From: Thermoplasmata archaeon | GTDB taxonomy: Archaea; Thermoplasmatota; Thermoplasmata; Lutacidiplasmatales; UBA184 | NCBI GenBank assembly: GCA_022750115.1 | Contig: JAKIWI010000005.1 | Location: forward strand, 1 to 64,000 | Reading direction: 5' to 3' | Length of the DNA stretch: 64,000 nt | In this document: positions 41,848 to 48,161 of the stretch, in pieces | Position numbering within the stretch: position 1 is the first letter of the stretch | Layout: each line of letters starts with the position of its first letter | The notes under the pieces: model-generated | The model's input: the letters and a program-made list of their open reading frames with translations, nothing else | Told to the model about the DNA's origin: nothing | Databases searched by the model: none | Translations under genes and position numbers: made by a program

Positions 41848-42411
41848 GTGCTAATGAACCGAGGCCCCGACGCGTCGTCCCCGATTCCTCTGGAAGCGTT
41901 GGGTTCATCGGGGCGTGGGATGCCCCGACGGACGGTGACGGCCGCACCCCCGCCCCTTCCCGCCCGCCTGCTGAGGGATTCGGCGCGGTGGTTCACCGAA
42001 GGGGCCCGACGGAAGCGGGAGGCGCGGCACGCCCAGCGATGCGTGAGCTGCGGCTCGCAGCTTCGCTCCCGTCGAACCCCCTACTGCTCCCGCTTGTGCC
42101 AGTGGAGGTTCCAGGGCGGCTATTTCTGGGATGCGGCGAGAACCTACGCGATCCACCGCGACCGGTTCACCTGTCGGAGTTGCGGCCACCGATTCCGGGT
42201 GCGGGCCCTCGAGGTCGACCACATTGTCGAGATCGCGCGGGGCGGCCCGCCCCTCGACCCCGCGAACCTCCAGACCCTGTGCCGCGACTGCCATCGGGAG
42301 AAGACGCGGGCCTTCCTGCGAGGTCGCTCCCGCACGAGATCCTCCCCCGAGCTCACGCCAACTCCGCCCCCCGCGACGGCGGACGACGGGGACGAGTGGT
42401 TTCCCGCCTAG
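41848..42411 (+). CDS. HNH endonuclease-domain protein with extra zinc motif
   Basis: Residues about 110-155 form a zinc-bound HNH nuclease domain: FTCRSCGHRFRVRALEVDHI followed by VEIARGGPPLDPANLQTLCRDC and H, in which DH, N and the final CxxCH are in the usual order. Upstream, residues about 60-90 contain a second cysteine cluster, CVSCGSQLRSRRTPYCSRLC. HNH proteins nick or cut DNA, but many small chromosomal HNH proteins have unknown roles. The start is uncertain: GTG 41848, ATG 41854 and ATG 41920 are all possible; a TATA-like CTAATGAA at 41851-41858 would favour the last. The gene is unlinked to methylases or integrases, so it is not obviously part of a restriction system. Confidence 0.82.
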   Translation: MLMNRGPDASSPIPLEALGSSGRGMPRRTVTAAPPPLPARLLRDSARWFTEGARRKREARHAQRCVSCGSQLRSRRTPYCSRLCQWRFQGGYFWDAARTYAIHRDRFTCRSCGHRFRVRALEVDHIVEIARGGPPLDPANLQTLCRDCHREKTRAFLRGRSRTRSSPELTPTPPPATADDGDEWFPA

Positions 42412-42436: not shown

Positions 42437-43201
42437 TCAGATGGCGTTCACGAGGAATCCTACCACGAAGCCGGTGAGGACCCCGAAGTAGACGAGCCGC
42501 TCGCGAAGGTGGGAGGGGTCCGGCGAGGACGCCGGGCGCAGCGCCGCCTTGGTCATCGGGAGCAGCACGTAGGCGATCGCTCCGATCGCCAGTCCGTCGA
42601 ACAGCAGGTCGACCGTGGTCGAGCTCGCGAAGTAGCCGAGCCCTCCCCCGAGGATGGTCGGGAGTCCGGCCAGGAGGAACAGGACCACGACGAGCCGGAC
42701 GGGGGGCTTCCCCGAGCCGAAGAACGGAGCGGCGATCGGGAGACCCTCGGTCACGTTCTGGAGCACGAAACCAACGAAGATCACGGCGAGGAGGCCGGTC
42801 GCCTGCGCGGGCCAGACGGCGCCGAACACCAGTCCCTCGGTGAAGTTCTGAAGGCCGATGCCGATGGCGACGACGAGCGCCATCCGAACCGGCGTGGTGA
42901 GCCCCGGCGCGCGGTGCGGGCTGGTGAGGACCATCAAGGCGAGAAAGGCGCCGACGACGCCCACCAGGAACACGGCGTCGGGCACCGACTGAGTTTGGAA
43001 CGCGGAGTTCGGGCTCGCGATCAGGGGCAGCACGTTGCCGAAGATGTCGGCGAGGAGGAACAGGAGGATGCCGATCGCGCCCGCGTTGAGGAACACGGCC
43101 CCGCGACCCTGGGCGCGGGGGTGGAGCACCAGCGGCAGCGCGAGGAAAATCGACAGCCCCATCACCGCGAGCAGGGCGATGAACAGCGGGAGGGGCAGCA
43201 T
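42437..43201 (-). CDS. ZIP-family metal transporter with variant metal-site residues
   Basis: Integral membrane importer of divalent metals. The 254 residues carry eight spans in ZIP order. The two core helices read GIGLQNFTEG (residues 114-123) and FVLQNVTEGLPIA (146-157). Canonical ZIP helices have His-Asn-x-x-Glu at these places; here both His positions are Gln (118 and 148), while Asn119, Glu122, Asn149 and Glu152 are kept. The histidine-rich cytoplasmic loop typical of zinc transporters is replaced by a short loop. It diverges from a regulator gene at 43.3 kb; its TATA-like AGTTTATG lies at 43231-43238. Confidence 0.88.
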   Translation of the reverse strand: MLPLPLFIALLAVMGLSIFLALPLVLHPRAQGRGAVFLNAGAIGILLFLLADIFGNVLPLIASPNSAFQTQSVPDAVFLVGVVGAFLALMVLTSPHRAPGLTTPVRMALVVAIGIGLQNFTEGLVFGAVWPAQATGLLAVIFVGFVLQNVTEGLPIAAPFFGSGKPPVRLVVVLFLLAGLPTILGGGLGYFASSTTVDLLFDGLAIGAIAYVLLPMTKAALRPASSPDPSHLRERLVYFGVLTGFVVGFLVNAI

Positions 43202-43230
43202 CCGACGGGCGCCGCCTACCTCGGTCGGGG

Positions 43231-43238
43231 CATAAACT
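43231..43238 (-). promoter_or_regulatory. TATA box of the ZIP transporter gene
   Basis: The minus strand reads AGTTTATG 30-37 bases before ATG 43201. A TGTGA half-site (43248-43252) lies ten bases further upstream. Confidence 0.5.
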
Positions 43239-43262
43239 CTGCTCTCCTGTGACGCTGAGGCA

Positions 43263-43271
43263 CGTATTTAT
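43263..43271 (+). promoter_or_regulatory. TATA box of the HTH/ferritin-like regulator gene
   Basis: CGTATTTAT lies about 50 bases before ATG 43320, so transcription should begin near 43295 and the in-frame GTG at 43278 cannot be the start. Confidence 0.55.
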
Positions 43272-43281
43272 CACACTGTGA
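43271..43281. promoter_or_regulatory. Candidate operator TCACA-C-TGTGA in the divergent promoter region
   Basis: A perfect five-base dyad around a central C, overlapping the end of the regulator TATA box. A further TGTGA lies at 43248-43252, next to the ZIP TATA box, 23 bases away. Both promoters could therefore be covered by the HTH protein encoded alongside. The symmetry is seen; binding is inferred. Confidence 0.5.
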
Positions 43282-43319
43282 ACGTCCGTCCGCCTCGAGG
43301 CGGGGAGGCCCGGACCAGC

Positions 43320-44138
43320 ATGCCGCGAACCAACGCCGCCGGCGAGCCGGCCCCGTCGGCCGGCGTCTGGGTCCAGGTCGCGCAGGGTCTCGTGGCTCGC
43401 GAGCTCGTCGAGGGGTTCGGGCTCTCCGAGCGGCAGGCCGGCGTCACCCTCGGGCTCGTCCCGTCGGCGATCTCCCAGTACCTCACGGGAAAGCGCCTGC
43501 GAGCGCCGCTCGAGCGGTGGGAGACGGACGAGACGACCCGCGCGGTCGTCCGCCGGACCGCGCAACGTCTGCTCACGGCCCGGGGGCAGGAACGAGCGAC
43601 CGAGGTTCTGCTCGCGGCGGCGGCCGAGCTGGCGCGTGGTCCCGGCGGAACCGCCGGCTCGGGGTCCGGCGCGACACGCCGCCCCGATCACCCGTCGCGG
43701 GCCGACAGCCGCTGGATCCGCCGCCGCATCGCGGGCGAGCAGGCGGCGGTATCCGAGTGCATGCGGCTGGCCCAGCGTTCGCGCGACGAGCTCACGCGCG
43801 CCGTGTTCCGCCAGATCGCGTCCGATAGTCTCCGCCACGCCGAGATCGTCGCCGCCCTCGCCCCGTACCTCGACCGGGGCATCTCCTCCACGGTCGCCTC
43901 AGGCATCACGCGGGCCGACGTCGAACGGCTCATCGACCGGGAGCACGCCGCCGAAGGGAGCCCTTCGGAGAGCCCCGGCCCGCGGCTCGGGGGCGTCATG
44001 CGGATCCTCTGGGAGAGCATGGAATCGGACGAGCGCAAGCACGACCACCTGCTCGCCCTCCTGCTCCGGACCGAGTTCCCCTCCGACCCGCGAGGGGCGG
44101 GTCGTCGCGCCGCGCCGGCCCACCCGCGGCGGGCGTGA
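43320..44138 (+). CDS. HTH regulator fused to a ferritin-like domain, candidate metal sensor
   Basis: Residues about 22-60 form a helix-turn-helix of the archaeal COG2522 type (LVEGFGLSERQAGVTLGLVPSAISQYLTGKR). After a Gly/Ser-rich linker, residues about 132-250 look like a four-helix ferritin-like bundle: RRRIAGEQAAVSECMRLAQR, AVFRQIASDSLRHAEIVAAL, RADVERLIDREHAAE and RILWESMESDERKHDHLLAL. Glu140, His173, His209, Glu238 and His241 could ligate one or two metals. The order HTH then metal-binding bundle, and divergence from a ZIP transporter over a shared promoter region with a dyad, suggest a metal-responsive repressor. I chose ATG 43320 (272 residues) because the TATA box makes GTG 43278 unlikely. 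Confidence 0.75.
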   Translation: MPRTNAAGEPAPSAGVWVQVAQGLVARELVEGFGLSERQAGVTLGLVPSAISQYLTGKRLRAPLERWETDETTRAVVRRTAQRLLTARGQERATEVLLAAAAELARGPGGTAGSGSGATRRPDHPSRADSRWIRRRIAGEQAAVSECMRLAQRSRDELTRAVFRQIASDSLRHAEIVAALAPYLDRGISSTVASGITRADVERLIDREHAAEGSPSESPGPRLGGVMRILWESMESDERKHDHLLALLLRTEFPSDPRGAGRRAAPAHPRRA

Positions 44139-44247: not shown

Positions 44248-45036
44248 ATGAGGGGTGGCGAAGATGTCGCCACGGTCCCACGAGGGGCCGGCTCGATGGG
44301 GCTACCGAAACCGTCGCTGGAGGAGTTGGTCCAATCGACCGACTCCGGCCGCTCGAAGGGGTCCGCGAAGGCGGTCCGCGTCGTCGCGGTCGCCGACCTA
44401 CCGACCCGCTTCGGCGAGTTCGACGTCGCGGCGTTCCACAGCCCCGCCGACGGAAAGGACCACGCCGCGCTCGTTCTCGGCGAGGTCGCCGACAAGGAGC
44501 GAGTGCCGGTGCGCCTCCATTCGGAGTGTCTCACGGGCGATGCGTTCGGGTCGCTGCGGTGCGACTGCCGCGAGCAGCTCGAGCTCGCGATGTCCGAGAT
44601 CCAGCGCCGCGGGACCGGCGTCCTCCTCTACCTCCGACAGGAGGGACGTGGCATCGGCCTCGAGGCGAAGATCAAGGCCTACCGGCTCCAGGAGCTCGGC
44701 CTCGACACGATCGAGGCGAACGAGGCGCTTGGGTTCCGTGCCGACGAGCGGGACTACGCCGTCGCGGCCGCGATGCTGCGCGTGCTGAAGGTCCGCTCCA
44801 TCCTCTTGATGTCGAACAACCCGGCGAAGATCGCCGACCTCAAGGTCCACGGGACCCGGATCGCCGGGCGGATCCCGCTCGAGGTCTCTCCGAACCCGTT
44901 CAACGCTCGCTACCTCGAGACCAAGCGGGTGAGGGCCGGCCACCTCCTGACGAAGCCCCCCTGGCCCCCGATCATGGAGCAGCTCGACTGCCTGCACGCG
45001 GCCCCCTCGTCCGGCGGGGAGCCGTCGGAAGAATGA
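44248..45036 (+). CDS. ribA: GTP cyclohydrolase II
   Basis: Opens GTP to 2,5-diamino-6-ribosylamino-pyrimidinone 5'-phosphate, the first step of riboflavin synthesis. The zinc-binding site is HSECLTGDAFGSLRCDCREQ (three cysteines), followed by YLRQEGRGIGLEAKIKAY and DTIEANEALGFRADERDY, all intact. The product is 262 residues from ATG 44248; ATG 44296 (MGLPKPSLEEL) is an alternative that removes an unconserved lead-in. Archaea more often use the unrelated ArfA (GTP cyclohydrolase III), so this bacterial-type enzyme is notable. It follows the HTH/ferritin-like gene by 109 bases on the same strand; riboflavin demand by the several flavoproteins in this window (ThyX, NDH-2-like, DAO-type) makes sense of it. 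Confidence 0.94.
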   Translation: MRGGEDVATVPRGAGSMGLPKPSLEELVQSTDSGRSKGSAKAVRVVAVADLPTRFGEFDVAAFHSPADGKDHAALVLGEVADKERVPVRLHSECLTGDAFGSLRCDCREQLELAMSEIQRRGTGVLLYLRQEGRGIGLEAKIKAYRLQELGLDTIEANEALGFRADERDYAVAAAMLRVLKVRSILLMSNNPAKIADLKVHGTRIAGRIPLEVSPNPFNARYLETKRVRAGHLLTKPPWPPIMEQLDCLHAAPSSGGEPSEE

Positions 45037-46099: not shown

Positions 46100-46150
46100 G
46101 TATGTAGCCGGGTGCCTTCGCGGGACCGCCGCCCCTGGCGGTATGGGAGA
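46100..46150 (+). promoter_or_regulatory. Conserved upstream element of the first secreted paralogue
   Basis: TATA-like GTATGTAG (46100-46107), inverted repeat ACCGCC-gcccct-GGCGGT (46125-46142) and GGGAGA (46145-46150) precede ATG 46157. The same order and spacing recur before the second paralogue. The inverted repeat falls at the predicted transcription start, so it may be an operator or a leader hairpin. Confidence 0.5.
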
Positions 46151-46156
46151 ACCGAG

Positions 46157-47038
46157 ATGCGCGAATTGGTCCGAGATTCGATTCCGAACACGATGCGTCG
46201 ACACCAAGGCCACTGGCTGGGCGCAATGGCCCTGGGAACCTTCGGGCTTGTGGCGCTGATGGCGCTCATCCTGCCCGTGAGCGCGGCCGTTGCCCCGATG
46301 ACGGTCATGCAGACGATCAAGATCACCGCTCCCTACACCGGCGCGGTCGTGAGCACGAGCTCGTCGGTCTCGGCGAGCGGCTGCGGCACCTCGTCGCTCG
46401 TCACCCCTGCGTTCTTCCACTGGCGCACCGGTGACGGCGGCTTCTCGGGCTCCGCGTCGTCGCACACCTGCGCGACGAGCGCTTCGGGCTACTCCTCCAC
46501 CTACCAGTCGATCTACGCCGAGGTCCCCCTGGTCGTCCTCTCGGGCATGAACCACATCACCGCGAGCTGGTCGATCAAGGCCGACGGCGGGAGCTCGCTT
46601 CATGTCGGCGCCTGCGCGATGCCTTCGGGGAACAACTCGTCGTTCTCGGAGTGCTACGCGAGCGCCTCCAGCAGCCTGTATGCCTACAGCTACGTCATCG
46701 ACGCCACCAACGGGTCGTACTTCCTCCCGACGGGGAACGGCTCGTGGGGCGTGTCGAGCGGCGCGAGTTACACGCAGTACTGCTACTCGGGCAACTGTTC
46801 GACGTACTCCTCCGGCGCGCCGGGAACGTTCTCGGTCCACGCGCCAGCGGTCTGGCACTTCAAGGCGCCCGGGCTCGTGCCCAGCCACTCGTACTTCCTC
46901 GAGTTCTCGTTCTACGGACAGGAGTACGCTGACGAGGGAGCCTACGGTGCGACGCTCGGCCACTCGTACGGCAGCGCGTGGCTCAACTTCGGGACCTTCG
47001 GGAACGGAGCGAAGCTCAACTCGATCGTGATCACCTAG
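46157..47038 (+). CDS. Secreted or anchored beta-rich protein, tandem paralogue A
   Basis: Family not recognised. From ATG 46157 (293 residues) the N-terminus RRHQGHWLGAMALGTFGLVALMALILPVSAAV is a signal or anchor helix. The exported part is almost all beta-strand, Ser/Thr/Gly-rich, with Asn-x-Ser/Thr sites (GNNSSFS, TNGSYF, GNGSW, GNCST) and eight or so cysteines, and ends YGSAWLNFGTFGNGAKLNSIVIT. It shares about half its residues with paralogue B 241 bases downstream; shared blocks are ITAPYTG, TPAFFHWRTG / TPPFFHWRTG, SSHTCAT, VPSGNNS-like, SGAPGTFS, HAPAVWHFKAPGL and AWLNFGTFG. No catalytic signature is visible. It may be a surface-coat or adhesion module. Confidence 0.75.
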   Translation: MRELVRDSIPNTMRRHQGHWLGAMALGTFGLVALMALILPVSAAVAPMTVMQTIKITAPYTGAVVSTSSSVSASGCGTSSLVTPAFFHWRTGDGGFSGSASSHTCATSASGYSSTYQSIYAEVPLVVLSGMNHITASWSIKADGGSSLHVGACAMPSGNNSSFSECYASASSSLYAYSYVIDATNGSYFLPTGNGSWGVSSGASYTQYCYSGNCSTYSSGAPGTFSVHAPAVWHFKAPGLVPSHSYFLEFSFYGQEYADEGAYGATLGHSYGSAWLNFGTFGNGAKLNSIVIT

Positions 47039-47279: not shown

Positions 47280-48161
47280 ATGCCCGCATCGCGCAGCGAA
47301 CCGATTCCGAGAACGATGCGGCGGCGCCGGGCGCACTGGCTCAGCGCGATGGCCACGGGGAGCGTCGGGCTCGTGACGTTGATTGCGCTCCTTCTGCCCG
47401 TGACAGCGGCGGTCTCCCCGTTGACCGTGGTGCAGACGATCCGAATCACGGCGCCCTACACGGGTGCCACGACGTACGTCATGTCGTCCGTTTACAAGAA
47501 CGGCTGCAGTACCTCCACCATCGTGACCCCTCCGTTCTTCCACTGGCGGACCGGTGTCGCGGGATACTCCGGTACTGCCTCTTCCCACACCTGCGCGACG
47601 AACTCATCGGGGTCGGCCTCGACGTTCGAGTCGATCTACACGGTGATCCCGCTGGTCGTCCTCCCGGGCACGGACCACATCACGCTGAGCTGGTCGATCC
47701 AGGTCGATGGCGGGAACTCCCTCCACGTCGGCCGCTGCTCGGTCCCGTCGGGGAACAACTCGTTCTTCTACTGCTCCGCGACCGCGTCCGTCAGCGTTGG
47801 CGTCCTCGCAGACGTCTTCGACGGCACGAACGGCTCGGTCTTTTTCCCGAGCGGGAACGGCTCGTGGATGGGAGTAACGAGCGCCACGTCCGACTTCGAG
47901 GTCTGCAACTCGGGGAACTGCTCGATGTCGACCTCGGGCGCGCCGGGAACGTTCTCGTTCCACGGGCCCGCGGTCTGGCACATCAAGGCACCCGGGCTCG
48001 TGACGAGCCACACGTACTACCTGTCCTTCGGATTCTACTCGTACGAGTTCGTCAGCGAGGGAGGCTACCAGGCGACGATCAGCCACTCGGGCGGGAACGC
48101 TTGGCTCAACTTCGGCACGTTTGGCGACGGAGCGATGCTCCACTCGATCCTGATCACCTAA
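47280..48161 (+). CDS. Secreted or anchored beta-rich protein, tandem paralogue B
   Basis: Also 293 residues and colinear with paralogue A throughout, so the pair arose by tandem duplication that included the promoter and 3' hairpin. The signal/anchor helix is RRRRAHWLSAMATGSVGLVTLIALLLPVTAAV with a basic start. Differences cluster in the strands between residues 70-90 and 165-195, where B has SVSVGVLADVFDGTNGSVFFPSG against A's SSLYAYSYVIDATNGSYFLPTG. Cysteines are mostly kept in place. The function is unknown; surface or secreted roles are likely from the N-terminus. Confidence 0.75.
   Translation: MPASRSEPIPRTMRRRRAHWLSAMATGSVGLVTLIALLLPVTAAVSPLTVVQTIRITAPYTGATTYVMSSVYKNGCSTSTIVTPPFFHWRTGVAGYSGTASSHTCATNSSGSASTFESIYTVIPLVVLPGTDHITLSWSIQVDGGNSLHVGRCSVPSGNNSFFYCSATASVSVGVLADVFDGTNGSVFFPSGNGSWMGVTSATSDFEVCNSGNCSMSTSGAPGTFSFHGPAVWHIKAPGLVTSHTYYLSFGFYSYEFVSEGGYQATISHSGGNAWLNFGTFGDGAMLHSILIT

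Follow-up and report, generated by a model that had tools for sequence, protein, structure and literature searches.

The gene at 43320..44138 (+ strand) of the window, i.e. of the whole 64-kb stretch of DNA analysed here, raises the question of what a helix-turn-helix (HTH) domain joined in one chain to a putative ferritin-like domain does next to the gene of a metal importer. The open reading frame runs from the ATG at 43320 to the stop at 44138 and encodes 272 residues; the initial annotation had identified it correctly, but had placed the start of the feature at 43202, which includes the intergenic region. The HTH domain (residues 14-60, 43359..43499, + strand) is defined by the HTH_3 profile, by conservation and by a high-confidence model. 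It is followed by linker helices (residues 61-106) and by a variable, disordered-looking linker (residues 107-126), which together span 43500..43697 (+) as judged from secondary structure, pLDDT values and the alignment. The provisionally ferritin-like domain (residues 127-252, 43698..44075, +) was delimited from conservation, a domain model and Foldseek comparisons; with approximately 126 residues it agrees with the bundle of about 120 residues first proposed to follow an archaeal-type HTH. A separate sensor-type domain thus lies C-terminal to the HTH, as in one-component HTH regulators. HTH_3 was matched in 26/30 family members (best E 2.1e-5, Pfam profiles), and residues Q53, Y54, G57 and R59 of the HTH are invariant in all 71 near-complete orthologues.

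The neighbouring gene (42437..43201, − strand) is divergently transcribed and encodes a ZIP-type divalent metal transporter of 254 residues, as indicated by the open reading frame, the profile matches and the linkage. The match to Pfam Zip (E 1.9e-4) is below the cut-off (21.2 of 35.1 bits), while the ZupT model gave E 9.5e-10. Among 74 distinct loci, a ZIP gene adjoins the regulator in 54 (31 divergent, 22 forming a ZIP-regulator operon and one with the ZIP gene downstream), and a divergent Nramp gene does so in six, so that the divergent importer noted at the outset is part of a conserved association. Counting against this association, an adjacent importer is missing from seven loci linked to a CADD/PqqC-like gene and from a few others. 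In L002, L008-L010, L041 and L102, this gene for a protein of the haem-oxygenase fold is directly upstream of the regulator and takes the place of the importer, and in L008-L010 a variant dyad, CTCAC..GTGAG, is kept before the regulator. In genome G002 the regulator gene occurs twice, once next to a CADD-like gene and once divergent from an Nramp gene. A NicO gene beside the regulator in L007 was not counted as support, since the dyad was not seen there. In most of the linked ZIP proteins, both metal-site motifs (QNLTEG and QNVTEG types) have Gln where His is normally found; about 10 loci have a more distant ZIP with HN..EG. With the Pfam match below cut-off and the metal-site His replaced, the transported metal is unsure and, judging from these motifs, may be other than zinc.

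As for other genes of the window, immediately after the regulator comes one for a RibA-like GTP cyclohydrolase II (44296-45036), and a relative is adjacent to the locus in L011 and close to the ZIP gene in L145. At 41848-42411 an HNH endonuclease, set behind a zinc-ribbon-like part, is encoded, whose match to the IscB model is weak, and two similar tandem proteins of 308 and 293 residues (46112-47038 and 47280-48161, same orientation) have no assigned function.

The GTDB contig collection gave nine loci with orthologues of the regulator, every one of them labelled Thermoplasmata. Matches were also obtained in 29 of the 61 near genomes and in 250 of the 400 searched from the class, where the weaker ones extend over the HTH only. 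Most full-length fusions come from the family to which the window belongs, and three (G058, G093 and G119) come from two further families of the class. When the C-terminal domain was used as the query, 22 of 390 genomes of the phylum, a sample that omits some outlier genomes, gave a match, all but three from the same family. The three outside matches are weak, and neither of the two examined has an HTH: one resembles the VIT1/CCC1 membrane proteins and carries a rubrerythrin-like part at its N terminus, and the other is a short ferritin-like protein. Across the protein tree the regulator is linked to three importer classes, with no fewer than 13 changes of importer class and no fewer than three of layout.

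The candidate operator was sought in the intergenic region. A dyad, ATCACACTGTGAA, is found at 43270..43282 (no strand assigned), and its inner 11 bp form a perfect palindrome. A half-site TGTGAC (GTCACA on the ZIP strand) is present at 43248..43253 (−); its start and that of the dyad are 29 bp apart. The TATA-like element of the ZIP promoter, GTTTATG, is at 43231..43237 (−), as judged from its sequence and from a conserved offset of approximately 43-44 bp from the dyad start; that of the regulator, GTATTTAT (43264..43271, +), was identified from its sequence only, and touches the dyad. The initial description of one TATA element for each gene, a perfect dyad and a second TGTGA is therefore accurate. 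The dyad TCACACTGTGA, with its 11-bp core TCACANTGTGA, occurs once in the 64-kb window against 0.01 expected from dinucleotide shuffles, and the site at this locus is the only match to TTCACANTGTGAA with up to one mismatch in the 2.1-Mb assembly (G000). The looser dyad TTCACRNYGTGAA at one mismatch is too permissive for the prediction of a genome-wide regulon.

The same arrangement recurs before the importers of other genomes, so that the dyad has not been lost at the orthologous loci. Among the 52 ZIP promoters with enough sequence, 47 contain TTCACRNYGTGAA with at most two mismatches, compared with 1.5% in shuffles; with the stricter TTCACANTGTGAA at two mismatches, 42 real sites were found versus 0/54 with the reversed-pattern control. 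A TCAC half-site is found 28-29 bp away, nearer the TATA box, in 42 of 50 sites (those with up to three mismatches), and the ZIP promoters usually have a TATA-like element next, at a distance of 43-44 bp from where the dyad starts. The six Nramp loci likewise have a dyad between importer and regulator, which shows no more than one mismatch in four of them and two mismatches in the others. In G001 and G002, a copy of the regulator is unlinked to the ZIP gene, which nevertheless carries GTCACAGTGTGAC/T with a half-site 29 bp further on; in seven genomes in which the regulator was not detected, the dyad is absent at the ZIP gene, the best upstream match having 3-5 mismatches. Thus, the dyad is found at the ZIP gene in 9/9 genomes with the regulator (two unlinked and seven linked) versus 0/7 without it (Fisher p 9e-5, kinship ignored). 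The dyad had initially been taken to be shared by the two genes. However, it stays before the ZIP gene also in the ZIP-regulator operons and is, therefore, better called the importer's operator; as deduced from these promoter comparisons, it stays with the importer as importer class and layout change.

Two variants of this arrangement were also observed. In L152 (G033) an Nramp gene is found downstream of the ZIP gene in the same orientation, and a second dyad, TTCACAGTGTGAC, lies between them (G033:C14:33498). In the distant relatives L100 and L101 (G058 and G093, two genomes only), the best palindrome upstream of the ZIP gene resembles TTAACA-n-TGTTA, which would be a symmetric change from TTCACA-n-TGTGAA and may go together with changes in the recognition helix of the regulator.

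With respect to the C-terminal domain, the window protein alone gave weak profile matches with Rubrerythrin (E 0.015) and EncB_fam (E 2.9e-5). Across orthologues, the former was matched in 26/30 (best 1.5e-5, Pfam) and the latter in 27/30 (best 1.4e-5, NCBIfam), all of these values being below the curated cut-offs; a PDB search with the single window sequence found no match. The Glu/His set from which a metal-binding bundle was first proposed is fully conserved: E140, H173, E208, E238 and H241 are invariant in 71/71 near-complete orthologues, as are D156, D169, S170, R172, D237 and K240. All 71 proteins follow E-x29-S-x2-H in their first half, and 70 of them follow E-x29-E-x2-H in their second half, the remaining one being one residue shorter. 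The encapsulated-ferritin motif is thus present twice in each chain, with one Glu replaced by Ser (S170). In terms of the Glu/ExxH pattern, helices A, C and D are complete, and helix B has S170-x-x-H173, rather than ExxH, in all 71 proteins. In EncFtn the ligands are Glu32, Glu62 and His65, and the di-iron centre is built at the dimer interface in a metal-dependent manner (PMC5012862).

Structure predictions were obtained with the window protein and the related loci as input, the deeper orthologue set of the genome search being left out of both. The full-length AlphaFold model (10 sequences) was poor overall (pTM 0.41), although the HTH part was modelled with high confidence, so that the C-terminal domain was also folded alone. 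The resulting model of residues 127-252 (pLDDT 86.5, pTM 0.76) is consistent with the anticipated ferritin-like fold, and four helices are arranged in two pairs in the models (127-153 and 157-185, 198-211 and 225-250). The Foldseek list for this model consists nearly entirely of ferritin-like proteins, yet with E-values above 0.1 and a poor full-length superposition, which leaves the mutual placement of the two hairpin halves unsure. The A-B hairpin fits EncB to 0.8-1.8 Å over 57-59 residues. The family profile aligns, with weak E-values, with bacterioferritin, EncFtn and designed diiron bundles, and S170 falls at the Glu position in the alignments with the latter two. Because the second bridging Glu of the first half is missing, the domain, as classified from sequence and models, is assigned to the ferritin-like class only provisionally, and this loss could make the metal site non-functional.

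Taken together, sequence and models make the protein a probable one-component transcription factor that would respond to metal through a ferritin-like sensor and be dedicated to the promoter of a divalent-metal importer. An HTH dimer would bind the TTCACRNYGTGAA dyad, a site marked by its conservation, along with the half-site 28-29 bp nearer the importer TATA box. The C-terminal domain would act as the sensor by contributing putative Glu and His ligands from its two hairpin halves (E140/H173 and E208/E238/H241), to which Fe2+ or Mn2+, the metals suggested by the fold and the importer classes, would bind when the cytosolic metal is sufficient. Metal binding would then alter the way in which the two HTH domains are held, and with S170 in place of the bridging Glu the site would be expected to bind metal reversibly instead of acting as a ferroxidase. 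The metal-free protein would activate the importer gene, with the metal switching activation off, a sign that is only slightly preferred. In the window, the contact of the dyad with the regulator's own TATA element favours autorepression.

The alternative that survives best has the same sensor with the opposite sign, in that the metal-bound protein would be a co-repressor of the DtxR/MntR type that blocks TFB/TBP at the importer promoter and at its own; the initial annotation had likewise assumed a repressor. We consider it a serious contender, though with somewhat less than an even chance of being correct; its likelihood and that of activation by the metal-free form overlap, because sensor and operator are common to both and the sign alone separates them. 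In favour of a co-repressor, the half-site ends near the importer BRE and the dyad touches the TATA element of the regulator, and simple negative feedback would result in the ZIP-regulator operons. However, both operator elements are upstream of the importer BRE/TATA in both layouts, and never over or downstream of it. Archaeal activators usually bind upstream of BRE/TATA (PMC5937170). The position of the candidate operator would thus fit activation at least as well as repression, and tips the balance a little towards a metal-free activator.

The bundle might instead be a redox sensor, whose diiron or mono-iron centre would react with O2 or H2O2 and adjust metal import in the manner of PerR, which has a different fold. 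Its closest relatives in sequence and fold (rubrerythrin, sulerythrin and EncFtn) do carry out O2 or peroxide chemistry, but the diiron motif has the invariant Ser in place of one bridging Glu and the linked genes are importers, not peroxide-defence genes, so that we regard this reading as unlikely. Similarly improbable is that the domain is a metal-free dimerization scaffold, with the signal being something else: the loss of the bridging Glu would be in keeping with it, and the invariant D156, R172, K240 and D237 could form structural salt bridges, whereas the invariance of five Glu/His at ferritin ligand positions down to 27% identity and the linkage to three importer classes speak against it. 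That the dyad belongs to another regulator, e.g. one of the DtxR family, with the HTH-ferritin gene as a passenger, is very improbable: a DtxR-type domain is present in 15 of 18 relatives checked, but the window's genome has the dyad and no DtxR or Fur match, six of the seven genomes lacking both regulator and dyad do have DtxR, and in two genomes the dyad persists at a ZIP gene to which the regulator is not linked.

The protein can be compared with several known systems. DtxR, IdeR and MntR are likewise one-component HTH regulators of metal uptake genes and sense Fe2+ or Mn2+ (PMC7762939), but differ in the folds of both the HTH and the sensor, which is here ferritin-like. Neither PF02742 (Fe_dep_repr_C) nor PF01475 (FUR) was matched in the contigs of the window's genome (assembly about 90% complete, with no Nramp match either) or in the regulator, and Fur gave no match over the cut-off in the 18 genomes checked. 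The regulator would act in the manner of DtxR/MntR without belonging to that group, because neither the DtxR C-terminal nor the FUR domain was found in it. Rubrerythrin, sulerythrin and bacterioferritin share the ferritin-like fold and give weak profile matches, but are enzymes or storage proteins rather than regulators, and their ligands are spaced by about 33 residues rather than 30. The archaeal ThiR, in which an HTH is fused to ThiN, follows the same design idea of using the fold of a metabolic protein as the sensor; the sensor fold and the ligand are different. The initial annotation knew of no regulator of this build, and a search of the open-access literature likewise found no described HTH-ferritin example, which is not proof of absence. 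By motif spacing, the putative sensor is closest to EncFtn (PMC5012862), whose pattern recurs exactly in the second half of the domain and also, apart from Ser at the second Glu position, in the first half; however, EncFtn/EncB proteins are two-helix cargo ferroxidases of encapsulins without a DNA-binding domain, whereas here two hairpins are found in one chain behind an HTH. It is conceivable, if somewhat short of an even prospect, that a duplicated EncFtn-type hairpin with one catalytic Glu lost has come to sense Fe/Mn reversibly and to switch an archaeal HTH from importer activation to release and back, thus defining a new metalloregulator family. If so, the ferritin-like fold would join the short list of sensor folds of metalloregulator families, a ferritin-type domain would have been recruited for gene control, and a likely regulator of metal uptake could be named for a large uncultured family of Thermoplasmata.
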